From positions 5,184,871-5,248,870 of the forward strand of contig JAJEKV010000010.1 of assembly GCA_021234155.1 (NCBI GenBank): DNA of 64,000 bases, read 5' to 3'. The position numbers and the translations under genes are program-made. This stretch comes from Isoetes taiwanensis. Taxonomy: Eukaryota; Streptophyta; Lycopodiopsida; Isoetales; Isoetaceae. How positions within the stretch are numbered: the first letter of the stretch is position 1; each line of letters begins with the position of its first letter. Below the pieces are notes generated by a model that had not been told where the DNA came from, did no database searches, and saw only the letters and a list, made by a program, of their open reading frames with translations. Of this stretch, positions 2,583 through 60,795 are shown piece after piece.

Positions 2583-4996
2583 TCAGTTATATATCTTCAC
2601 AGGCTTCTCAAGTTGGTGCCGGTTCTGCATGTACTAAAGTATCAACAAAACATGTTTCAACCATAGTAGGCTGCTCATCTTATAAAAATATAATCCAACC
2701 TGGTTCAGCTGCAATGACCTCTTAGGAGCATTATCTACATGCTCCAGTCCCAAATAATGCTCCCATGCACCATAAGCATCCCTCTTCTGTTTTCAAACCT
2801 TGCAACTTAGTCTCCAATATGCCAGAAACAAGCTTTACCAAAAGAAAACTAAAGATCTGGAAAGAACCTGGAAACGAGCTGCAATTGTCTCATTGTCCTG
2901 AAGATACTCGCATCGTCCCAGTGAAACAAAGGCGAACTTCCACTGCATTACAAGCATTACATGACAGAATTGCACCACAAATGCTTAAGATATGAAAGTT
3001 CCAAAAATACCTTAGAGAATTCCTGAAATTAAGCTAACTTGTAACTTGCTTTGGATACGGTTCTTGACATCAGATAATGTATCATGCTCTTTAACTGCTA
3101 GAAAGAAAGGCTCACCAAAATTTTGTACCTGTATGCTTCAGAATTAGTATAAAATCATAATAGGTGAAGTGGAGAACATGGCCACTATACCACATGGTTC
3201 TGAGAAGCATCACGAGTGAAATGGTAGACATGAATTATGCGATCCTGAGCCCCAAGATCTTTCTGATCTTCTGGAATCTGATGCCCATTAGCTCTGTAAG
3301 AATGCAATACTGATAAAAGTAACAAAAACAAATTCAGCCTAAGAAAGAAACCTCTTCAGCCCGTAACGTCCAATACTGGTCATTAATGTTTTCAATCTTT
3401 TCTGTTAAAGGAAAGATCTGAAACTCCACAGGATTAGAATGAGAAATATAGTGTCTTACTAGCTCGAGAATTGTGAACTCCTGAACAGTGACATTACCTT
3501 GTAGATCTTATGATAGAATACTTCTAAGATTCTCAAGTCTGCTTTAGGATCAGATAGCTCAACCTTCAGGACAAGCGGTAAAGGTTAGACACCATATTCC
3601 TCTCATCTATACAAACATAAATTTATCTAGCCTTACTTTTGTTTTAAGATCATTAATAACATCACCAACTGTGCTTTGCTTTGGCAACCTGATGCTCTGC
3701 ACAGAAACCTGCATATACGTTCTTCCGTTACCAACTGCCAAAGAGCTACAATACAATCAATCCAATATTCACCTCTTCTGTCCGTTGATTGTGGAATGCC
3801 ACCTTCAGAGTCTTCAGACCCTGTAGCTCCGGAAGTGGCATATCGAGAGTCTCAAAGTAAAGAATATCAGTTGTCTGCCAAATAATAATTTCTTAAAAAG
3901 TCGGCACAATAACGTACAATCCACAGGATGAGCATTACCTATCATCAACAGACCTGATTGTAGTGGACAAGCATCTCATTAAGGCGCTCTGCACTACGAT
4001 ACTTGATAGACTGTGGTTTGGGCTGCTGAGAATAACAATTATGAGGACGTAAGTCTAATTTTTTGATGGATCGTCCATGCCCAAGTGTTGGGCAACTCTT
4101 TCAACCACATCATCGTATGTGTGCTGTTTTGAACTGGTTGAAAGACGACCACAGATTAGAACATGAATGTAGAAAAGCTAAAACAACAAATTTGTTGACT
4201 AGAAACTTGTTGATAGATTCTTAATAATGATACCAATAAATTGGTTACATACAGCTCCAAAGAGAACTCGTCTTCTTTTGGCTTCTCAAGTCTCCGAAAC
4301 CGAACAACCTTAAATAACACACATACCACAGACACCATATCAAAAAATGTTAAAAGTAAAGGGCCCAAAACAATTTATTATTTAAAGTAGAAAAATCTTC
4401 CCATTACACAAAGAGGAGTTAGAAGCCAGCCAATCATTAAAGAGCATTTTCATTAAGTCCAACAATTCCTCTGTTAGAAGTGTCATCTATATAAGACTGC
4501 CTGGCATAATAATATCTAGGCAACCCGCCTAAAAAGAACTGCAGAAGAAAATAATCTCCTACAGATCATGGGCATGGTGTATCTAAATCTTCAGAAGATC
4601 TAGCAAAGCGTCAAAAATACAAAAAACACAAAGAGGGTGCTTAGCAATTCGGCCCCAAGATGATTGAATGGAAAGCCAAAAACGAATAGTCAAAGCAGCA
4701 TAAGATGCATGTTCCATGAGGAGAGAGCCTCACCTGTCGATTGCGAACATACTCAAAGAACGAAGGAACATCTGGATATCTGTAACAATCTTCTTCTTCT
4801 TTTCTCAGTTGCCGCTGATAGCAAATTATGTCACCATCTTCCAACTAGAACAAATTCCTCGTGTCTGAGTTACTCCAAACAATGGCTATCTAGTGTCAGA
4901 TACAATACAATCAATCGATTACATTACCTGGCTAATCTTGTATGTCATTTTCTTGTCCATATGCTCGCACATAACATTGGGCTCAAACTTTATTTC

Positions 4997-14381: not shown

Positions 14382-14526
14382 TCCCATGCATCAGAAAGAT
14401 ACTTCCATGAATTTTGAGGCTAGAAAGATAATCACAATATAAATTCTCCTGGAGAATTTATATTGGCAGATTGTGATTATCTTTCTAGCCTCAAAATTCA
14501 TGGAAGTATCTTTCTGATGCATGGGA
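14382..14526. repeat. Long near-perfect foldback (hairpin), 145 bp
   Basis: The left arm starts TCCCATGCATCAGAAAG and the right arm ends with its exact reverse complement. The outer 57 bp pair perfectly. After an 8-nt bulge on the right side (ATTGGCAG), a further 11 bp (ATAAATTCTCC with GGAGAATTTAT) close the stem around a single base. Transcription from either strand would give a stable stem of about 68 bp. It could be a very young MIRNA-like locus, a recent inverted duplication or a MITE; no target-site duplication is evident. Confidence 0.85.
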
Positions 14527-28324: not shown

Positions 28325-28775
28325 CACTACCCAAGAGACCTCAGATCAGGCAAGGCTACCCGCTGAGTTTAAGCATATCATTAAGCGGAGGAAAAGAAAC
28401 CAACAGGGATTTCCCTAGTAACCGCTGAAATGAACCGGAAGGTGCCCCAGATTGAGAATCGCGGGCGTTACGTGTTGCTGGTGTAGTGCAGAAGAAGCGT
28501 CCCCTGCGGGCGGTCGAGGTTCCCCTGGGGAAGTGGGCGCTGAGAGGGTGAGAGCCCCGTCAGGCCCGGACCCTGTTGCTCCACGAGGCGCTCTCTACGA
28601 GTCGGGCTGTTTGGGAATGCAGCCTTAAGTGGGTGGTAAGTTCCATCTAAGGCTAAATATTGGCAAGAGACCGATAGCGAACAAGTACCGCGAGGGAAAG
28701 GTGAAAAGGACTTTGAAAAGAGAGTTAAAAAGTGCTTGAAATTGCTGGGAGGGAAGCGAAAGAGTAGCCTTGCCG
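28325..28775 (+). rRNA. 25S/28S rRNA 5'-end fragment (pseudogene)
   Basis: The segment contains highly conserved large-subunit rRNA tracts in order: TACCCGCTGAGTTTAAGCAT, AAGCGGAGGAAAAGAAAC, AGAGGGTGAGAGCCCCGTC, GACCGATAGCGAACAAGTAC, and AAAGGACTTTGAAAAGAGAG. This is the first ~450 nt of 25S rRNA, through domain I. Variable stretches differ strongly and some core positions are changed (ATCATTAAGCGG for ATCAATAAGCGG), so it is a fragment and probably not functional. No 5.8S or ITS is recognisable upstream, and similarity fades into repeats at about 28775. Confidence 0.85.
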
Positions 28776-28814
28776 CTACGATCCGTTGAGGTTCGGCCTC
28801 TTGTCTTTGCGATT

Positions 28815-53954: not shown

Positions 53955-54924
53955 ATGTTCTGTACATTGCCTTGCCCTAATGGCCCTGTAAATTTCAAGG
54001 AAAGGTGTATTGACTTAGAAAGGATTATAAAGCTAGCATAGTGTCAGGGCAAAAACCCAGGTTTTGGAAAGTGGAGGTGCTTACAAAAGTATTTGATTAT
54101 GACAGTTCATTATATGTAAATTGACGGCTTTTATACTTTTCCTACATGCGATTCTTTTGCATGCATGGTGTTAGTTGTTCGATGAAAATGCTGGCTGCAG
54201 CTTGATGCTGAGATTCACAAGCAGTTCATATAGCTTCATCTCTGTCATTATTCGTTTTGGAGCCTACAGAATGACAGGAATTGTTTTCATCAAGGTTGCG
54301 AAGTAACATGATTAACGACATTGATCATTGTAACATTGTTTAAAGAAGTTTATGGAGATGTCTCGAAATTTGAGGCCAAAGGTAGTTATTCAAGATGCGT
54401 TTGCCAGAAAAGTGGCGGGGTCAATAGTTAGGATGTACTCCATAGTGGTGCCTATTATGAATTTGAGGGGTATGGTGTGATTTTGGAGTGTGGCAATAGC
54501 ATTTTTATTGATGCAGCTCATTTTTGAAGCTTTCAAAGTCTTATGCAACATGAATGTTTTCCTCAAAACCATTTCTGATGTACCTTTTCCAGTGCTCCAC
54601 CTTCCCATAAGTCAGTCATATATATATAATAAGCAGAAAAAAGAGCTATCCACTTCCAAGCATTTTGCTGGCAGATGTATTTGCTGTTAGTAGTACCATA
54701 TCCGAAGCTACATAATAGAAGAGAGAAGTATGTAGTTTTCTGTTAGTAGTACCCACTTATGTTGGCTACATATAGAAGAGAACGCTTGCTGAGATAGTGT
54801 AGTTGGCATTTGAGGAAATTCTATAGCACACCATTTGTTCTACTTAAAGATTGCAAGGATCAAACATGATTATATAATATTGCAAGGAACGAATTATTGT
54901 AAACATACAAGAAGAAATATATCA

Positions 54925-55048
54925 CGGTTGTCAAGGCCACCTTGAATATGTCTTTGCAGAATAGGCCCAATGTAAAAGGCAACCAAGGCCACCTTGAATA
55001 TGTCTTTGCAGAATGGTGCAAAAAAGGCCCAATGTGAAAGGCAACCAG
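54925..55048 (+). repeat. Tandem duplication, ~58-65-bp unit
   Basis: AAGGCCACCTTGAATATGTC, then TTTGCAGAAT, GGCCCAATGT and AAAGGCAACCA, occurs twice in direct orientation; the second copy has a short insertion (GGTGCAAAAA). Confidence 0.85.
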
Positions 55049-55109
55049 GTGTTAAAGAAAACCCAATGTTTGGCTAGAAGACTTGCTCCATCTAGTCCAT
55101 TCATGCCTT

Positions 55110-55300
55110 AGGAATCAGCTTTGAAATTCTCTAAAGATTCCCTTAGAATCTATCAAGTCTTTATTGAGATTCCTTTAGATTCTCTCAAGATTCCTTTCCA
55201 TTTCAAGAAAATTGAAAGATTATGCAAGATTCCTTGAGATTCACTTCAGATTCTCTAAGATTTTTTGAAGATTCCATAGATTTCCTCAATACTCAATACT
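55110..55300 (+). repeat. Degenerate AGATTC-rich simple-sequence array
   Basis: Short motifs such as AGATTCCTT, AGATTCTCT and GATTC recur at irregular ~10-20-bp intervals. No longer unit is conserved. Confidence 0.6.
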
Positions 55301-56390
55301 CCTTGAAGATTCGTAATGCCCTTTCTGATCCGCTTCCCTGCTCTGATATGTCCCCTCCTCCAACCGTGGCCGCCTTAATCTGTGTCCTCGAATATATATC
55401 TTCGTGCTCTTCCATTCAAAAGGGGCTTTTGCTCCTAGCTCTTAAATCAAACTTTTTTTCAATCTCAACCCTTAGATTAAATAACCATACTTTCCTTAGC
55501 CTAAACTTACATTAAAACTGTGCATGTCTCACAGTGATATCGTACCATTGTTTACCTTGCTCTTTGTTGTTAATTTTTGCAAGTAAGTGAACTAAACAGT
55601 GCATTGCATGTAGAAAGCCTTGCATTTTTACTATTCTATATGCACAACTCCGAATGTGTGGCACTAGCATTGTAACGTCTAACTCTTTATGGTGCAAGAA
55701 ATCAACAACAACGTCTAGAAGAAATAATCAAATTAGAAAGGCTTGCATTTTGATGATTCTATAGAAAGGCTAGCAAAAACAAATAAACATTTTTGCATAA
55801 ATATTGCTAGGACGAGAGGTTGCATAAGATTTTGGCATACACTAATGTATATGAATCCATACTTGAGAATGCATTATTTAGCATGTGATGTCAACTATCA
55901 AAACTGGGCAATGGGGTGAGAGTAATTTAAAGGAAAGGGAAATGTCTTCTGCCTTGAACAACAAAATGTAGTGCTCGATGAGACATTAAGGAACTATTGA
56001 AAAAACTAAGAAAGGCTTTAGACCATTAGTCAATGGCGACCTATGACATTTAACACATTGAAGTTTTTGCAATACTAGCCTTGCTAGTTTAACGCCCTAA
56101 GAACTAGATTAATATAATACCATATGCATAAAGTTGTTAGAAATCCATCAGATCGAATGCTATTTACGAGCCATCGTAGTTTTAGTATACTCATGGGGAG
56201 GCAAAGATATCTCTAATCTGAGTGTGTTTCACAGCATTGTATTGATAGAATTTCGTTACTAATGGGTCCAATTTCACGGTTTTGAAGAAACAGTTAACTT
56301 TACATTGTCACTTTTTAATCACATTATTTTCTTTTAGAACACAAGGTGAGGAAATGCATGTCCAATCATGTACATGTAGGTAATATGGAT
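55301..56390. other. Spacer
   Basis: No gene or repeat recognised with confidence. Related GGCTTGCATTTT(G/T)..ATTCTAT stretches occur near 55615 and 55740. Confidence 0.35.
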
Positions 56391-56900
56391 GAAGAGAAAT
56401 GTTTGTGGTGGCAAAGATGGATGAAGAGAAATGTTCGCGGCGGCCTTGGCCGCCGCGATAAATTTCTTGTAATACTATGCCTAGTTCAAATTATAGTGAA
56501 ACAATAGTGAGCATGCTTTATAACTACAAGAAATTTATCGCGGCGGCCAAGGCCGCCGCGAACATTTCTCTTTTTCAAATTCATCATGGAGAATCTGTGT
56601 TAAGTCCCAAACAGTGTTAAAGAGGGCCAGGGTCAAAGATACCTCCCCAAGTTCCTTTTGAGTTCCTGTGTTGGTGGAAGAAGCTTATTGATCATGTAAA
56701 TATGACCTCTGCATCATTTGTATTTCCTACAACAATAGTTATGCCTAATTTCAATGTTTAAGTTCAAAATGGAATATTCTACACACAAGAAACTTTGTGT
56801 ATAGAATATGTAAGAATGGAATTGATGGAAGGCCGCTGCGAACATTTCTTTTTTCTAAATTCACTGCGGGGGAATTTGCGTCACCTTGGACCTGGGGTGA
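56390..56900. repeat. Rearranged partial copies of the foldback arm
   Basis: Arm-like pieces flank the main hairpin. GGATGAAGAGAAATGTT occurs twice on its left (56380s and 56418). At 56831-56860 GGCCGCTGCGAACATTTCTT recalls the right-arm end, followed in both places by a TTT-rich run and AAATTCA. A small palindrome (TATTCTACACACAA with TTGTGTATAGAATA) lies at 56773-56806. Confidence 0.55.
56425..56571. mobile_element. GC-rich foldback element, perfect 47-bp arms
   Basis: Arms 56425-56471 and 56525-56571 are perfect reverse complements over 47 bp. Each arm contains its own palindrome, GCGGCGGCCTTGGCCGCCGC, so each can also fold on itself, giving a cruciform-capable structure. The 53-nt A/T-rich loop (ATACTATGCCTAGTTC..) is nearly identical to 48665-48716, where the arms are absent. 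A partial extra copy of the arm start (GATGAAGAGAAATGTTTG) lies just upstream at 56387. No coding sequence. Confidence 0.85.
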
Positions 56901-57744
56901 AAAACATCTCTAGCTGGATCTCAAACCACAATGCTCAGAGTGTATCTCAGAATGGAATTCAAATTGCAGAATTCACTTCGGAAGTTCTCTATGTGTTTTA
57001 GAAGACCTTAAATGGACATGGTTACATGATAATTTACATTTAAACGAATCTAAGAAAAAATGTCATTTCAATGGTAAGTTCTGCTTTCTTTAATCATGAA
57101 CTCCATTAGATGAGGCTGACTACTTTTGGGCATAAATGTTAGAAAAGTTACAATGTTGCTAGCATGTTCTCCTAGTATGATATCATACTAATATTTAGAT
57201 TTCAAAGTGCAAGATGGAAGTGTTGGAAAGTAAAAATGCATGTCATGGATAATTTTTGGGAATATTAAAATTTTGATATTTTGAGTGATTCTTGTAATAA
57301 GTTGAGTTTTACGTGGAGGTGTCAAAGTGGCTTATAATTAATGCTATTGATAAGATTTTTTGAGGGGAATTACAATTAGTGATTATTTGGTCAAGGTCCT
57401 AAGATTATACTCTTAGAATGAAAATAGCTTATAGTGGAAAAACATGGGTCTTATTCGGTAAAGGGTTGCGTTTTTATTTTTTTGCTAGTACAAAAATGGT
57501 GCCCAGGATCGTTTATCTAAGGTTTGACATTTTTGAAGCAGGGGGCCGATCTCTTCTACTCATAGGAAAACAAAAGTTCTAGCATCTAGATTTGAAAGGT
57601 AGGGAGCCTATTTATGCTGGTGAAATGCTGTATATGCTGCACCTATCTGTTCTTGCAGTTTATACTCCTAGTTTATTGCTTGTGATATAGCTTATGTGCA
57701 GTCGTTTTCTTGTGTATAGGTTGAACTTGTGCACAAACATGCAG
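56901..57744. other. Spacer or intron preceding the PUB fragment
   Basis: No recognised gene. The acceptor-like CATGCAG at 57738-57744 immediately precedes the PUB-like exon, so the preceding sequence may be its former intron. Confidence 0.4.
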
Positions 57745-57966
57745 GGCCTTCAGCTTTATGAGGATGCGGTGTCTATCCTGGATAATAAATGTGACAGAGA
57801 CACAGATCAAACTCTCTTGAGAAGGTTGGCAGAAAATCTTCACCTTAAGACTATGTCAGATCTGAAACAGAAATCCCAAGCGATTGAAGCAATGATTATA
57901 GACAAAGGCGGAGATATTGATAGAACACTAGAATGTGTTGCTTCCATTCTCAGAAAATTAGCCTAA
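57745..57966 (+). pseudogene. PUB13/PUB14-like E3 ligase fragment, UND domain exon
   Basis: After CATGCAG, the frame reads GLQLYEDAVSILDNK and LLRRLAENLHLKTMSDLKQK, then SQAIEAMIIDKGGDIDRTLE. This matches the stretch of plant PUB13/PUB14-type U-box ligases with the pattern LxRLAxKLHLMxIxDLxQESxALxxMVxSxGGD, just N-terminal to the U-box. A stop at 57964-57966 ends it; a one-base shift would allow about 23 more codons (NAIAVANTPEADKAH). The next exon found is 0.8 kb away after a foldback insertion. The exons before and after, including all ARM repeats, are missing. Confidence 0.7.
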
Positions 57967-58153
57967 ATGCCATTGCTGTTGCTAACACGCCTGAAGCTGA
58001 TAAGGCTCATCTTGAAATGGCTCGTCCTACAATATAGAAGTTGGGTCCGTTTTTTTTAGTGGCGTGCATTTTGGTGCCGACGCGTGGCATTAGCCAATAA
58101 CGCGGAATGGAAGTCGGCTTCACCTATTCCGATTGACTGGCTGCACCGGTTAG

Positions 58154-58275
58154 GGCTTCGTTAGGTTTTGTTTTAGGTTTACAGTCGCCGCCATCGCCAG
58201 TTCTTCCCAGATCGCTTAGGTTTTGTTTTAGGTTTACCGGAGTGCTTGCTGCCATCGCCACTTCTTCACAGATCG
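58154..58275 (+). repeat. Tandem duplication, ~60-bp unit
   Basis: TTAGGTTTTGTTTTAGGTTTAC followed by GCCATCGCCA, TTCTTC and CAGATCG occurs twice. It lies between the two PUB fragments. Confidence 0.8.
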
Positions 58276-58618
58276 ACGGAGTTCTTACTGCGCTTGCCAT
58301 CGTTGCCATAACAGAGCATTTTGAAGCTCGTAATAGGCTCTGTTTTTGATCCAACGCCCAATTTTTTAGAAGAAATGCTTGCCATGGCCTCGTTCTTCGG
58401 CCCAATGCCTGCTCTTCGACCTAGTTTGCATGTATTTTTTACTTCTGCACAGGTAGCAGATCTTTCAAGGTTCGAAAAATCGCAAGTTTATAGCCGGATC
58501 TGTTCAAATCTTCACGAAACCTTGTCGGATCTTGTAAGAATGCTGTAAGTCTGCTGTAAGAATGCCCTATAAATTTGTTGGATCTGCAGAAAGAAAAAAA
58601 AACGTCCCCAACTTCTAT

Positions 58619-58753
58619 ATTGTAGGGGAATGGAGGTTGGGGCCTCCATTCCGGATTCCGGTTTCCAGGTGACCCGCTCCCGGCTAACGCCGGTCGCGGG
58701 ACCCCACCTGGAAACCCGGAATGGAGGCCCCAACCTCCATTCCCCTATACAAT
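58619..58753. mobile_element. GC-rich foldback element next to the U-box exon
   Basis: Left arm 58619-58671 starts ATTGTAGGGGAATGGAGG; right arm 58705-58753 ends with the reverse complement, CCTCCATTCCCCTATACAAT. Differences are a 6-nt insertion in the left arm (ATTCCG) and two bases (TA) in the right. Each arm also contains an inner palindrome, GGAATGGAGG with CCTCCATTCC. The 33-nt loop is GC-rich and self-complementary in part (CCGGCTAACGCCGG). No coding sequence. Confidence 0.85.
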
Positions 58754-58766
58754 AGGGTCATCGGTT

Positions 58767-58859
58767 GATAAACAAGGATTTCCGACCCTTCCTGATGATT
58801 TCCGTTGCCCCATTTCTTTGGAGGTGATGAAGGATCCTGTGATTGTTGCCACTGGCCAG
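58767..58859 (+). pseudogene. U-box domain exon fragment (PUB13/14-like)
   Basis: 31 codons read [20 protein letters not shown] then [11 protein letters not shown], ending at a GT donor (CAG|GTATTC at 58859). This is the first half of a plant U-box, which recruits E2 enzymes for ubiquitination; the exon break after TGQ is typical for PUB13/14-type genes. The second half (T-Y-D/E-R.. IxxW) is not found downstream. It lies 14 bp after a foldback element and is probably the next exon of the fragment at 57745. Confidence 0.8.
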
Positions 58860-59242
58860 GTATTCGATCATCTTTGTCGCCTAAATCCTTTCATCCATGC
58901 CGCTGTTTTTGCTCTCGTCTGTTACTCCAGTAGCACATTTCTTTTTCTCCGCTAAATCAAGCAGTTGCAAAAGCATCAATTCCTCTGCACAGAATGCTTC
59001 TTCGCTTTCTGTGGGTTCTGTTCTCCAGCCAGCATCCAGCCAACAATTTTGTTTGTTTGCGGTTAATGTTTTATGCGACCTGTGCTTTTCTTTTGAGTTT
59101 TTATTACACAATATCTTCAACTTATATTGATCATTGGCTACTTCATCTTGATATCAAAACGAGGTTCTAAGGGTGCCATCGCTAGTCATATGCATCTCAT
59201 CCCGCTCCCTACAACCTGCTCCCTCTGTCTCAAAATCTACCC
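58860..59242. other. Spacer between U-box fragment and TRM-like fragment
   Basis: Would be intronic to the PUB-like fragment if that gene were whole. No second half of the U-box is found in any frame. Confidence 0.4.
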
Positions 59243-59725
59243 CTATCCGGCAGTCTGGGTTGCTAGAACTTGAATGCTCTCCAATCGCCCAGAAAATCCT
59301 TGGCCGTTTTTGGATCTGCTACTTGCCTTACAACAGAGCCGCGTTGAGATAATCTGTGAACAGACCTCATCACTTCCACTTTTCCTTGGCTCCATGTTTT
59401 CCTGCTCTGTTTTCAAATTCCTTGTTGAGCCAAGGCGGGACAAAGGCCTGAGAGGCCCGCTTTTTGTAGAATCTTTGACAGGTTTCCTCGGCCCGCCCAT
59501 TTTCTGGGATTGAACCGCCATTGGATCGAGACCCATTAGCTTCGCAATCACACTGGGCGACTTTTTCTGTCCGCTTTTCGTTTCTTCCAAATCCATTTCC
59601 GGCATTGGAATTTCTACACCGAACTGCAACAAACGAGCTTATAGCATTAAAAAAAAAACCATAACCCAGAACCAAATCCAGCGCAAAACTTACCGGAATG
59701 TCGTCATTCTTGCCATAATCAGAAC
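59243..59725 (-). pseudogene. TRM/LONGIFOLIA-like (DUF3741) gene fragment
   Basis: Two minus-strand exons: 59725-59694 (SDYGKNDDIP, flanked by TGCAG and GTAAG) and 59623-59243, which begins FGVEIPMPEMDLEETKSG and contains KKSPSVIAKLMGLDPM. The SPSVIAKLMGLD motif is the hallmark of plant LONGIFOLIA/TRM proteins (DUF3741), which associate with microtubules and the TTP complex. The rest of the exon is basic and Ser/Pro-rich, as in the family. The frame stops at 59243 after about 137 residues, against many hundreds in intact members, and no further exons are recognised. It is a truncated fragment. Confidence 0.75.
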
Positions 59726-59926
59726 CTGCAAAACATACATTTGAGGCGCCATAGCTAAACACCGGAGAGAAACAGGGGAGATATTTTATACGCCATAAAT
59801 GCTCATAAATGCGTCTAAACACAAATTAATGCCTTGCAATCAATGAGTGCACACGTGTCATATTTTGGTAATTTTGAAGAAAGAAATTAGGTGTGAACAG
59901 AAATGCGATACTGCTTTAGATATGGT

Positions 59927-60795
59927 AGGATAATTCTATACCTATGTGAATGGATTGTGAAGCATGATGGTCCGTAACCAGGAGTTCCTCGTGAAGAGTA
60001 TAATTGAACGTACCTAGAAAGAAAATAGGGGAACATCTTGTAGTCTGCAAGAAAACAAGACATGTAAAATGTTCATAGCTCATATTGCAGGGAAACAATA
60101 TAGATCAGGTTTAGGGGCGCCTCATGGAAAATATAATGTGATCGGGACTCAGAAGGAAAGGGAAAAAAATGATTTTCAAAAAAAAAAGAGAACAAGATAT
60201 ATAGAGTATTCCCTGGCCATGAAGAGGTATTAAGGTATTTAGATCTGTATACAAGAATGGCTCTGCGCCTTGGATTCCGGAGCGCGTCGGCACTTCTTCC
60301 ACGCCGGAATCCAAGGCGCAGAGCCATTCTTGCAACGTGAAATCATGGGTGCCCTAGATTCAGTGCCACGTGGCGGCCATCCAACGGTTAGACAAAAGAA
60401 TAGCAGGTGGAAATGCAGAATGTCGTCCAGAATGTTTGCTACAATTCAGGGCAACATTCAGGAAAAGAATAGTTGCCACGTGGCGCGGCGCTATTGGATG
60501 AGAAGGCTGAATCTAGGGCACCCTGATTTTACGTATCTCAAGACTTAGTTGGCAGATAGTGCCCCAAGTTGAATCAATAAAAGATAGTTAACCTTAGTGG
60601 TGGTGCTGAGGATATTTAAAAATTTGCTGTATGGATGATACAATAGCAAATAAATAACGACATCTAGGGCATATAATCTAGGTGGAGTATGAAATAGCTT
60701 GATAAAATTGGATTAAGGATCTTGGTAGAACAATAAGAGATGGATGATGATAAAAACCAAGGCATATCTGAACCATAAGGCCTTTAAAAAAATAT
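59927..60795 (+). repeat. Dispersed repeat, copy 2, carrying an insertion
   Basis: Direct repeat of 48716-49290, some 11 kb away, with only scattered differences. Relative to copy 1 it is interrupted at 60250/60533 by a 282-bp insertion with a 4-bp duplication. Similarity ends at an A-rich run in both copies (49280; 60790), suggesting a poly(A)-like 3' end and possibly a retroposed origin. Confidence 0.85.
60251..60532. mobile_element. 282-bp insertion with two nested inverted repeats and GTAT duplication
   Basis: Comparison with the empty site at 49021 shows GTAT at 60247-60250 and again at 60533-60536. The insertion contains a perfect 29-bp inverted pair, CAAGAATGGCTCTGCGCC.. (60252-60280 and 60304-60332) around a 23-nt loop. 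A second pair of ~28-bp repeats containing GGGTGCCCTAGATTCAG lies at 60335-60363 and 60507-60534. CCACGTGG palindromes occur inside the second pair. The latter resembles a MITE. Whether the insertion is one element or two is unclear. Confidence 0.7.

Follow-up and report, generated by a model that had tools for sequence, protein, structure and literature searches.

Three GC-rich foldbacks in the lycophyte Isoetes taiwanensis as probable 3' termini of mobile elements

In a 64,000-nucleotide stretch of the genome of Isoetes taiwanensis (assembly GCA_021234155.1, contig JAJEKV010000010.1, positions 5,184,871 to 5,248,870; hereafter the window), three GC-rich foldbacks lie among fragments of host genes. 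We consider it likely that all three are 3' termini of mobile elements, probably of the rolling-circle type. Foldback 1 (56424-56572) consists of two independent Helitron-like 3' ends that meet tail to tail, 57 bp apart, and foldbacks 2 and 3 would belong to a single lineage that inserts at the dinucleotide AC. Copies of these elements were sought in a genome of 1,658,258,908 bases in 1,110 contigs.

An earlier, sequence-only reading had described the foldbacks as hairpins of one design but without common sequence, with arms of up to 53 bp and, in the first two, an inner palindrome. All three are present where they had been placed. Their perfect arms measure 48 bp (56424-56471/56525-56572, separated by 53 nt), 32 bp (58623-58654/58716-58747; counted from 58615, 43 bp at 91%) and 29 bp (60252-60280/60304-60332); the longest arm thus falls short of 53 bp. 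The inner palindromes of foldbacks 1 and 2 are real. Under one rule applied alike to the window and to shuffled sequence (arms of at least 16 bp, loop of at most 120 nt), the window holds five foldbacks, and 40 shuffled versions of it, with dinucleotide composition preserved, hold none. Folded as single-stranded DNA, foldbacks 1, 2 and 3 reach z scores of -16.70, -14.59 and -11.73, respectively, relative to shuffles. Such very stable folds might suit microRNA-type or other functional RNA hairpins; however, a scan against Rfam at the gathering threshold returned no RNA family at any of the three, and each foldback is an element terminus common to mobile copies. A role as functional RNA appears extremely improbable.

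The features that make up and surround foldback 1 are the following:

54909..56469, plus strand: part of element A common to other copies, with 54909-55901 at 95-96% identity
56435..56469, plus strand: 3' end of element A, a hairpin TCGCGGCGGCC-TT-GGCCGCCGCGA, then 11 nt ending in CTTG, with host TA next; the same end occurs elsewhere on other bodies
56470..56526, no strand: 57-bp spacer that forms the loop of foldback 1, with a 3' end on either side
56527..59930, minus strand: element B, Helitron-like, with 5' TCCTACC at 59930 and 3' CTTG at 56527; carries gene pieces

Read outward, the terminal structure consists of a GC stem of 11 bp closed by a 2-nt loop, followed by TAAATTTCTTG, and each half of the foldback is a hairpin on its own. 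A genome search with foldback 1 gave 80 matches (best 40 of 1,302 candidates), and every listed match beyond the window is a single arm. At least three different bodies (L003/L004; L005; L006/L007/L008) carry the same terminal 50 bp, and the sequence outside differs from place to place. The exact 23-mer formed by the end and the host TA has 3,103 copies in the genome (1,561 + 1,542); its reversed control has 0. TA comes directly after the 3' end at all 19 loci printed, of 20 fetched, with L027 and L031 having flanks in common. The query that retrieved these loci included TA, but patterns free of TA likewise showed it at every end printed. The last four bases are CTTG at 18 of the 19 loci and CTTA at L037. 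The sequence-only reading's common design for all three hairpins does not hold for a foldback in which two separate elements, each already ending in a hairpin, have come together, nor does its proposal of a single undescribed family, given the Helitron-like kind to which foldback 1 belongs.

The opposite, 5' end reads TCCT[TA]CC and is preceded by host A in seven and host T in seven of 14 resolved ends (L006, L007, L008, L057, L058, L059, L062, L063, L064, L066, L109, L110, L111 and the window), all located via the TCCT motif, 11 by script and three (L007, L062 and the window) by eye. Similarity to L006 begins at most 4 bases from this motif at L057, L058, L059, L063, L064 and L066; among the 13 stretches fetched for 5' ends, six showed none. 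For element B, the 5' and 3' end regions each match other copies. Element A extends farther to the left than 54909, and the search for its 5' end did not reach it. No target duplication was seen at elements of this type, the one comparison, at L006, being with a repeat of the host flank alone. Within the stretch common to the copies of element A, positions 55135-55294 hold GATTC-rich tandem-like repeats, and similar arrays lie beside L004.

Most likely, a RepHel enzyme would nick the elements of all three foldbacks at their 5' ends, copy one strand and stop at the 3' hairpin; judging from published work on Helraiser, the terminal GC hairpin of the foldback 1 ends may serve as this stop signal. 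Read-through beyond the hairpin, shown for Helraiser to carry flanking DNA along (PMC4778049), could likewise take up host sequence here. Genes for RepHel (PF14214 with PIF1) are abundant in the genome (150 scored of 1,813 candidates), and no link between them and the CTTG end was established.

Tail-to-tail meetings of these ends occur elsewhere as well. Pairs with a gap of at most 61 bp occupy four places, three of them independent (two are copies of each other), pairs with gaps of 63-123 bp occupy two more, and the spacers are unrelated in both groups; a further pair, with a 150-bp gap, lies at C1051 (L115). Pairs other than that of the window, approximately 50-150 bp apart, were recorded at G000:C1002:325313, C1082:2472647, C1082:2499853, C440:80785, C931:2061223 and C1051 (L115). 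At gaps up to 123 bp, no special spacing was evident. Counting that of the window, there are five independent pairs at most 123 bp apart, against about 0.2 expected by estimate, not simulation, from 3,103 evenly spread ends.

This excess, together with the identity of the two arms over 48 bp, is what would be predicted if foldback 1 had arisen by template switching, as a local inverted duplication of one Helitron end, and the sequence-only reading had indeed proposed a local mechanism generating inverted duplications. However, the two arms lead into unlike bodies that match different subfamilies elsewhere (L005 and L067-L069 for A, L003 and L004 for B), the identity of the arms ends with the element plus TA, and the spacers of the other pairs are unrelated and of unequal length. 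A preference for AT-rich targets, reported for Helraiser (PMC4778049), also fits the clustering, and we prefer it as the probable cause in view of the unlike bodies; local duplication thus seems very unlikely. Foldback 1 shows how two transposon tails can make up a striking perfect inverted repeat, a trap for hairpin-based annotation of small-RNA genes or of miniature inverted-repeat transposable elements (MITEs).

Two further elements have foldbacks 2 and 3 as their 3' hairpins:

58029..58750, plus strand: element 2, with 5' ACAATATAG and inverted repeat, body, inverted copy at 58595-58623, hairpin and 3' TATAC; non-coding
58623..58747, plus strand: foldback 2, the long 3' hairpin of element 2
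60247..60534, minus strand: element 3, with 5' ACGTAAAATC and inverted repeat at the 60534 side, body, inverted copy at 60335-60363, hairpin and TATAC at 60247-60251; non-coding
60252..60332, minus strand: foldback 3, the 3' hairpin of element 3

Element 2 is matched over most of its length by seven other loci that were cut out (L010-L016; best 40 of 1,257 candidates). Its 17-base end repeat has 323 exact occurrences in the genome, against 1 for the reversed control. Positions were listed for 100 of the 323, and 20 exact inverted pairs among these were fetched; other listed positions lack an exact partner in the vicinity. The hairpin is one-sided in 15 of the 20 pairs by script and in four more (L082, L083, L088 and L089) by eye, L080 having none, and the copies are short, with bodies of 506-744 bp in the 15 printed. 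Both borders could be resolved by a stricter script in 19 of 28 loci, the window included, 17 of which are independent (L012, L013 and L015 share flanks). In these 19 copies, the base after TATAC is A in 18 and G in one, and the base that precedes the 5' repeat varies freely (T 7, A 7, C 3, G 2).

Two empty sites mark where elements of this type entered. Where L004 and L056 hold an insertion of the element 2 type, L003 reads GACC-ACAAAAATG, and a U-box paralogue (L105, C1034:18180146-18180321), which matches positions 6-181 of the 181-base joined query at 97%, reads CTT-ACAATAGGG across the insertion point of element 2 itself. Both sites keep one AC(AA), and the overlap of element and host there, six and seven bases, is longer than AC. 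As the unbroken paralogue shows, element 2 inserted into, and thereby interrupted, a U-box gene fragment.

Two fetched loci stand apart. L072 and L073 (G000:C341:55103-58120) are two copies of element 2 that share their flanks and lie approximately 2 kb apart, one with a short and one with a long hairpin; a deletion from one repeat of the inner palindrome to the other could explain the short one. At L080, the inverted end-repeat pair lacks a TATAC hairpin, and the sequence after the right repeat recurs over more than 100 bp, in direct orientation, before the left one.

The family of element 3 is small, since its exact 17-base repeat occurs only 23 times in the genome (reversed control, 2). Twenty-three loci were read, representing 22 places, L022 and L093 being identical. 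Nineteen begin with AC(G/A)TAAA (the exceptions are L095, L096, L099 and L104), and 19 carry the TATAC end, the 3' end being disrupted at L022/L093, L101 and L103. The first base of the 19 distinct 3' flanks is A in 12, G in five and T in two; one of these flanks is that of a neighbouring element and one is common to L020 and L023.

Elements 2 and 3 share a 5' inverted repeat whose partner stands right before the hairpin; both insert at host AC and have the edge CATTC-NNN-TATAC, and in the copies of both the ends are constant and the flanks variable. The view that the hairpins have no sequence in common therefore fails for foldbacks 2 and 3, which share the outer edge CCATTC-NNN-TATAC. On these common ends, the two would be short non-coding families of one little-described lineage. 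At L081, at L102 and at the site common to L020 and L023, one element starts where another ends in TAT(A)-AC. Tentatively, and with rather less than even confidence, we suggest that elements 2 and 3 represent a distinct, rolling-circle-like plant lineage that recognizes AC, ends in a long hairpin plus TATAC and builds head-to-tail chains by insertion of its members into each other's TATAC ends.

The same flanks could have been left by cut-and-paste, MITE-like elements with a fixed AC target duplication, the hairpin then extending the right terminal repeat on one side only. Of the 19 resolved copies of element 2, 18 are bordered by AC at either end (at L014, the element starts with TC instead), where a duplication is indistinguishable from an AC of the element's own; the 5' AC at 19 of 23 element 3 loci is likewise what a 2-bp duplication would leave, and an inverted repeat of approximately 30 bp bounds the body. 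Against this, the outermost ends are asymmetric and not inverted repeats of one another (ACAATATAG vs GTATAGGGG in element 2; ACGTAAAATC vs GTATACAAG in element 3), and the hairpin keeps to one side of the aligned body throughout (window and L010-L016). We know of no superfamily with an invariant AC duplication. A MITE-like origin of elements 2 and 3 thus seems unlikely, albeit a more serious contender than RNA function or local duplication. As to the proposition that each hairpin might come from an unrelated known MITE family, foldback 1 is indeed unrelated to the other two, but none of the three fits a MITE.

Several observations weigh against 3' termini of rolling-circle elements as the common explanation. 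A different kind of transposase making a fixed 2-bp AC duplication would leave the same flanks at elements 2 and 3. No empty site was obtained for element 3. None of the three ends was found in 11 scanned RepHel loci (L045-L055), seven of them with approximately 9 kb downstream, the nearest approach being one loose TTTCTTGTA, without a hairpin, at L052. No autonomous copy of element 2 was seen among the inverted pairs fetched from the 100 listed end positions, nor was a RepHel-encoding partner with the ends of element 2 or 3 found in the RepHel loci and listed copies examined. To these are added the departures from known elements, described below, in terminal bases, 5' host base, 5' hairpin and target. 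Separately, downstream of the RepHel gene at L053, a perfect 16-bp hairpin (4256-4291) stands directly before a CTAG|T-like, canonical-looking end; most reading frames around it contain long open frames, which suggests a tandem repeat array.

The gene fragments that the sequence-only reading had noticed between the hairpins, of a PUB-like ligase and a TRM-like gene, are both present and both lie in element B or at its end:

57662..58878, plus strand: U-box (PUB-type) gene piece, interrupted at 58029-58750 and unbroken in the paralogue G000:C1034:18180146-18180321
59001..59933, minus strand: gene piece with a VARLMGL motif (TRM-like), together with the 5' end of element B, common to three 2.3-kb Helitron-like copies at 91/91/84%

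The U-box piece matches positions 2-27 of the 73 of PF04564, and its similarity to the paralogue begins and ends at 57662 and 58878. The motif in 59001-59933 is PF14383; we take the VARLMGL motif to be linked to TRM proteins. L109, L110 and L111 share this stretch at 91, 91 and 84%, respectively, with the CTTG hairpin approximately 2.3 kb from each 5' end and with different flanks. The 5' end of element B (59784-59933) matches many listed places (best 40 of 355 candidates), a relative at C1051 matches 56525-57689 at 86% and stops short of the U-box piece, and 58879-59138 has separate matches elsewhere at 80-96%. Element B, its stretches matching different sets of loci, is therefore a mosaic. 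Its gene pieces are most likely cargo captured from at least two host genes by a Helitron-like element, since the three 2.3-kb relatives hold the same VARLMGL piece between the same types of end. Capture as the origin of the pieces and movement of element B as one 3.4-kb unit are what we infer; a second full-length copy of element B was not found in the genome.

The earlier proposal that structured elements invade and fragment genes is accordingly to be divided. Foldbacks 2 and 3 do mark mobile elements, one of which split the U-box fragment, and foldback 1 is of the different, Helitron-like kind; for the most part the fragmentation runs the other way, the gene pieces looking like the captured cargo of a Helitron-like element. 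With at least 3,103 tail copies, some with gene pieces, the CTTG-ending element may be one of the main gene-shuffling forces in this plant.

Elsewhere in the window, its longest perfect foldback (14382-14526) has 57-bp arms with zero mismatches around a 31-nt loop and is AT-rich (35% GC). A fragment of eukaryotic large-subunit ribosomal RNA (RF02543, E 2.2e-71) lies at 28359-28796, with GC-rich blocks next to it at 19-25 and 28-30 kb.

Listings of the literature on Helitrons in Isoetes or lycophytes and on CTTG ends contain, as far as listings tell, no description of these elements. Canonical Helitrons, as outlined in PMC4067079, have a 5' TC, a 3' CTRR and a hairpin of 16-20 nt located 10-12 nt from the 3' end, and insert between A and T without duplicating the target. 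The elements of foldback 1 resemble them in the 5' TC (all 14 resolved ends begin with TCCT), in a GC-rich 24-nt palindrome, slightly longer than 16-20 nt, followed by 11 nt to the 3' end, in insertion beside T with no duplication seen, in the use of one 3' end on varied bodies and in the gene pieces inside. They differ in ending with CTTG instead of CTRR and in that half of the host bases preceding the 5' end are T, not A. These ends follow the Helitron plan, CTTG replacing CTRR, and a search requiring CTRR would miss them.

For elements 2 and 3, comparison with Helitron2 also touches an element named Helitron-5_SMo, in which SMo presumably denotes Selaginella. The mark of Helitron2, given also for Helitron-5_SMo in PMC3627910, is a pair of asymmetric inverted repeats whose 3' copy lies directly before the 3' hairpin. 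Like the Helitron2 elements described as ATIR elements (PMC3627910) and FoHeli (PMC5148889), elements 2 and 3 have a 5'-terminal inverted repeat with its partner upstream of the 3' hairpin and no clear target duplication. However, their window copies lack a 5' hairpin (z +0.68 and +0.59), they target AC and not TTTT or T-rich sequence, and their 3' hairpin is usually much longer, with the partner repeat approximately 80-130 nt from the end. Because of the absent 5' hairpin and the different target, we do not file them as members of Helitron2. With the non-autonomous Helentrons (HINE/DINE-1), as characterized in PMC4067079, they share subterminal inverted repeats, a 3' stem-loop and short non-coding copies, whereas those elements insert in TT with T-rich borders, in contrast to AC and a TATAC 3' border here. 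From MITEs they are set apart by outermost ends that are not mutual inverted repeats. AC is among the rarer targets of Helraiser, a RepHel element (PMC4778049). In anatomy, the ends of elements 2 and 3 resemble those of Helitron2/Helentron elements; they look Helitron2-style with a changed target, and the enzyme that moves them would bear on how rolling-circle transposases choose AC over AT or TT.

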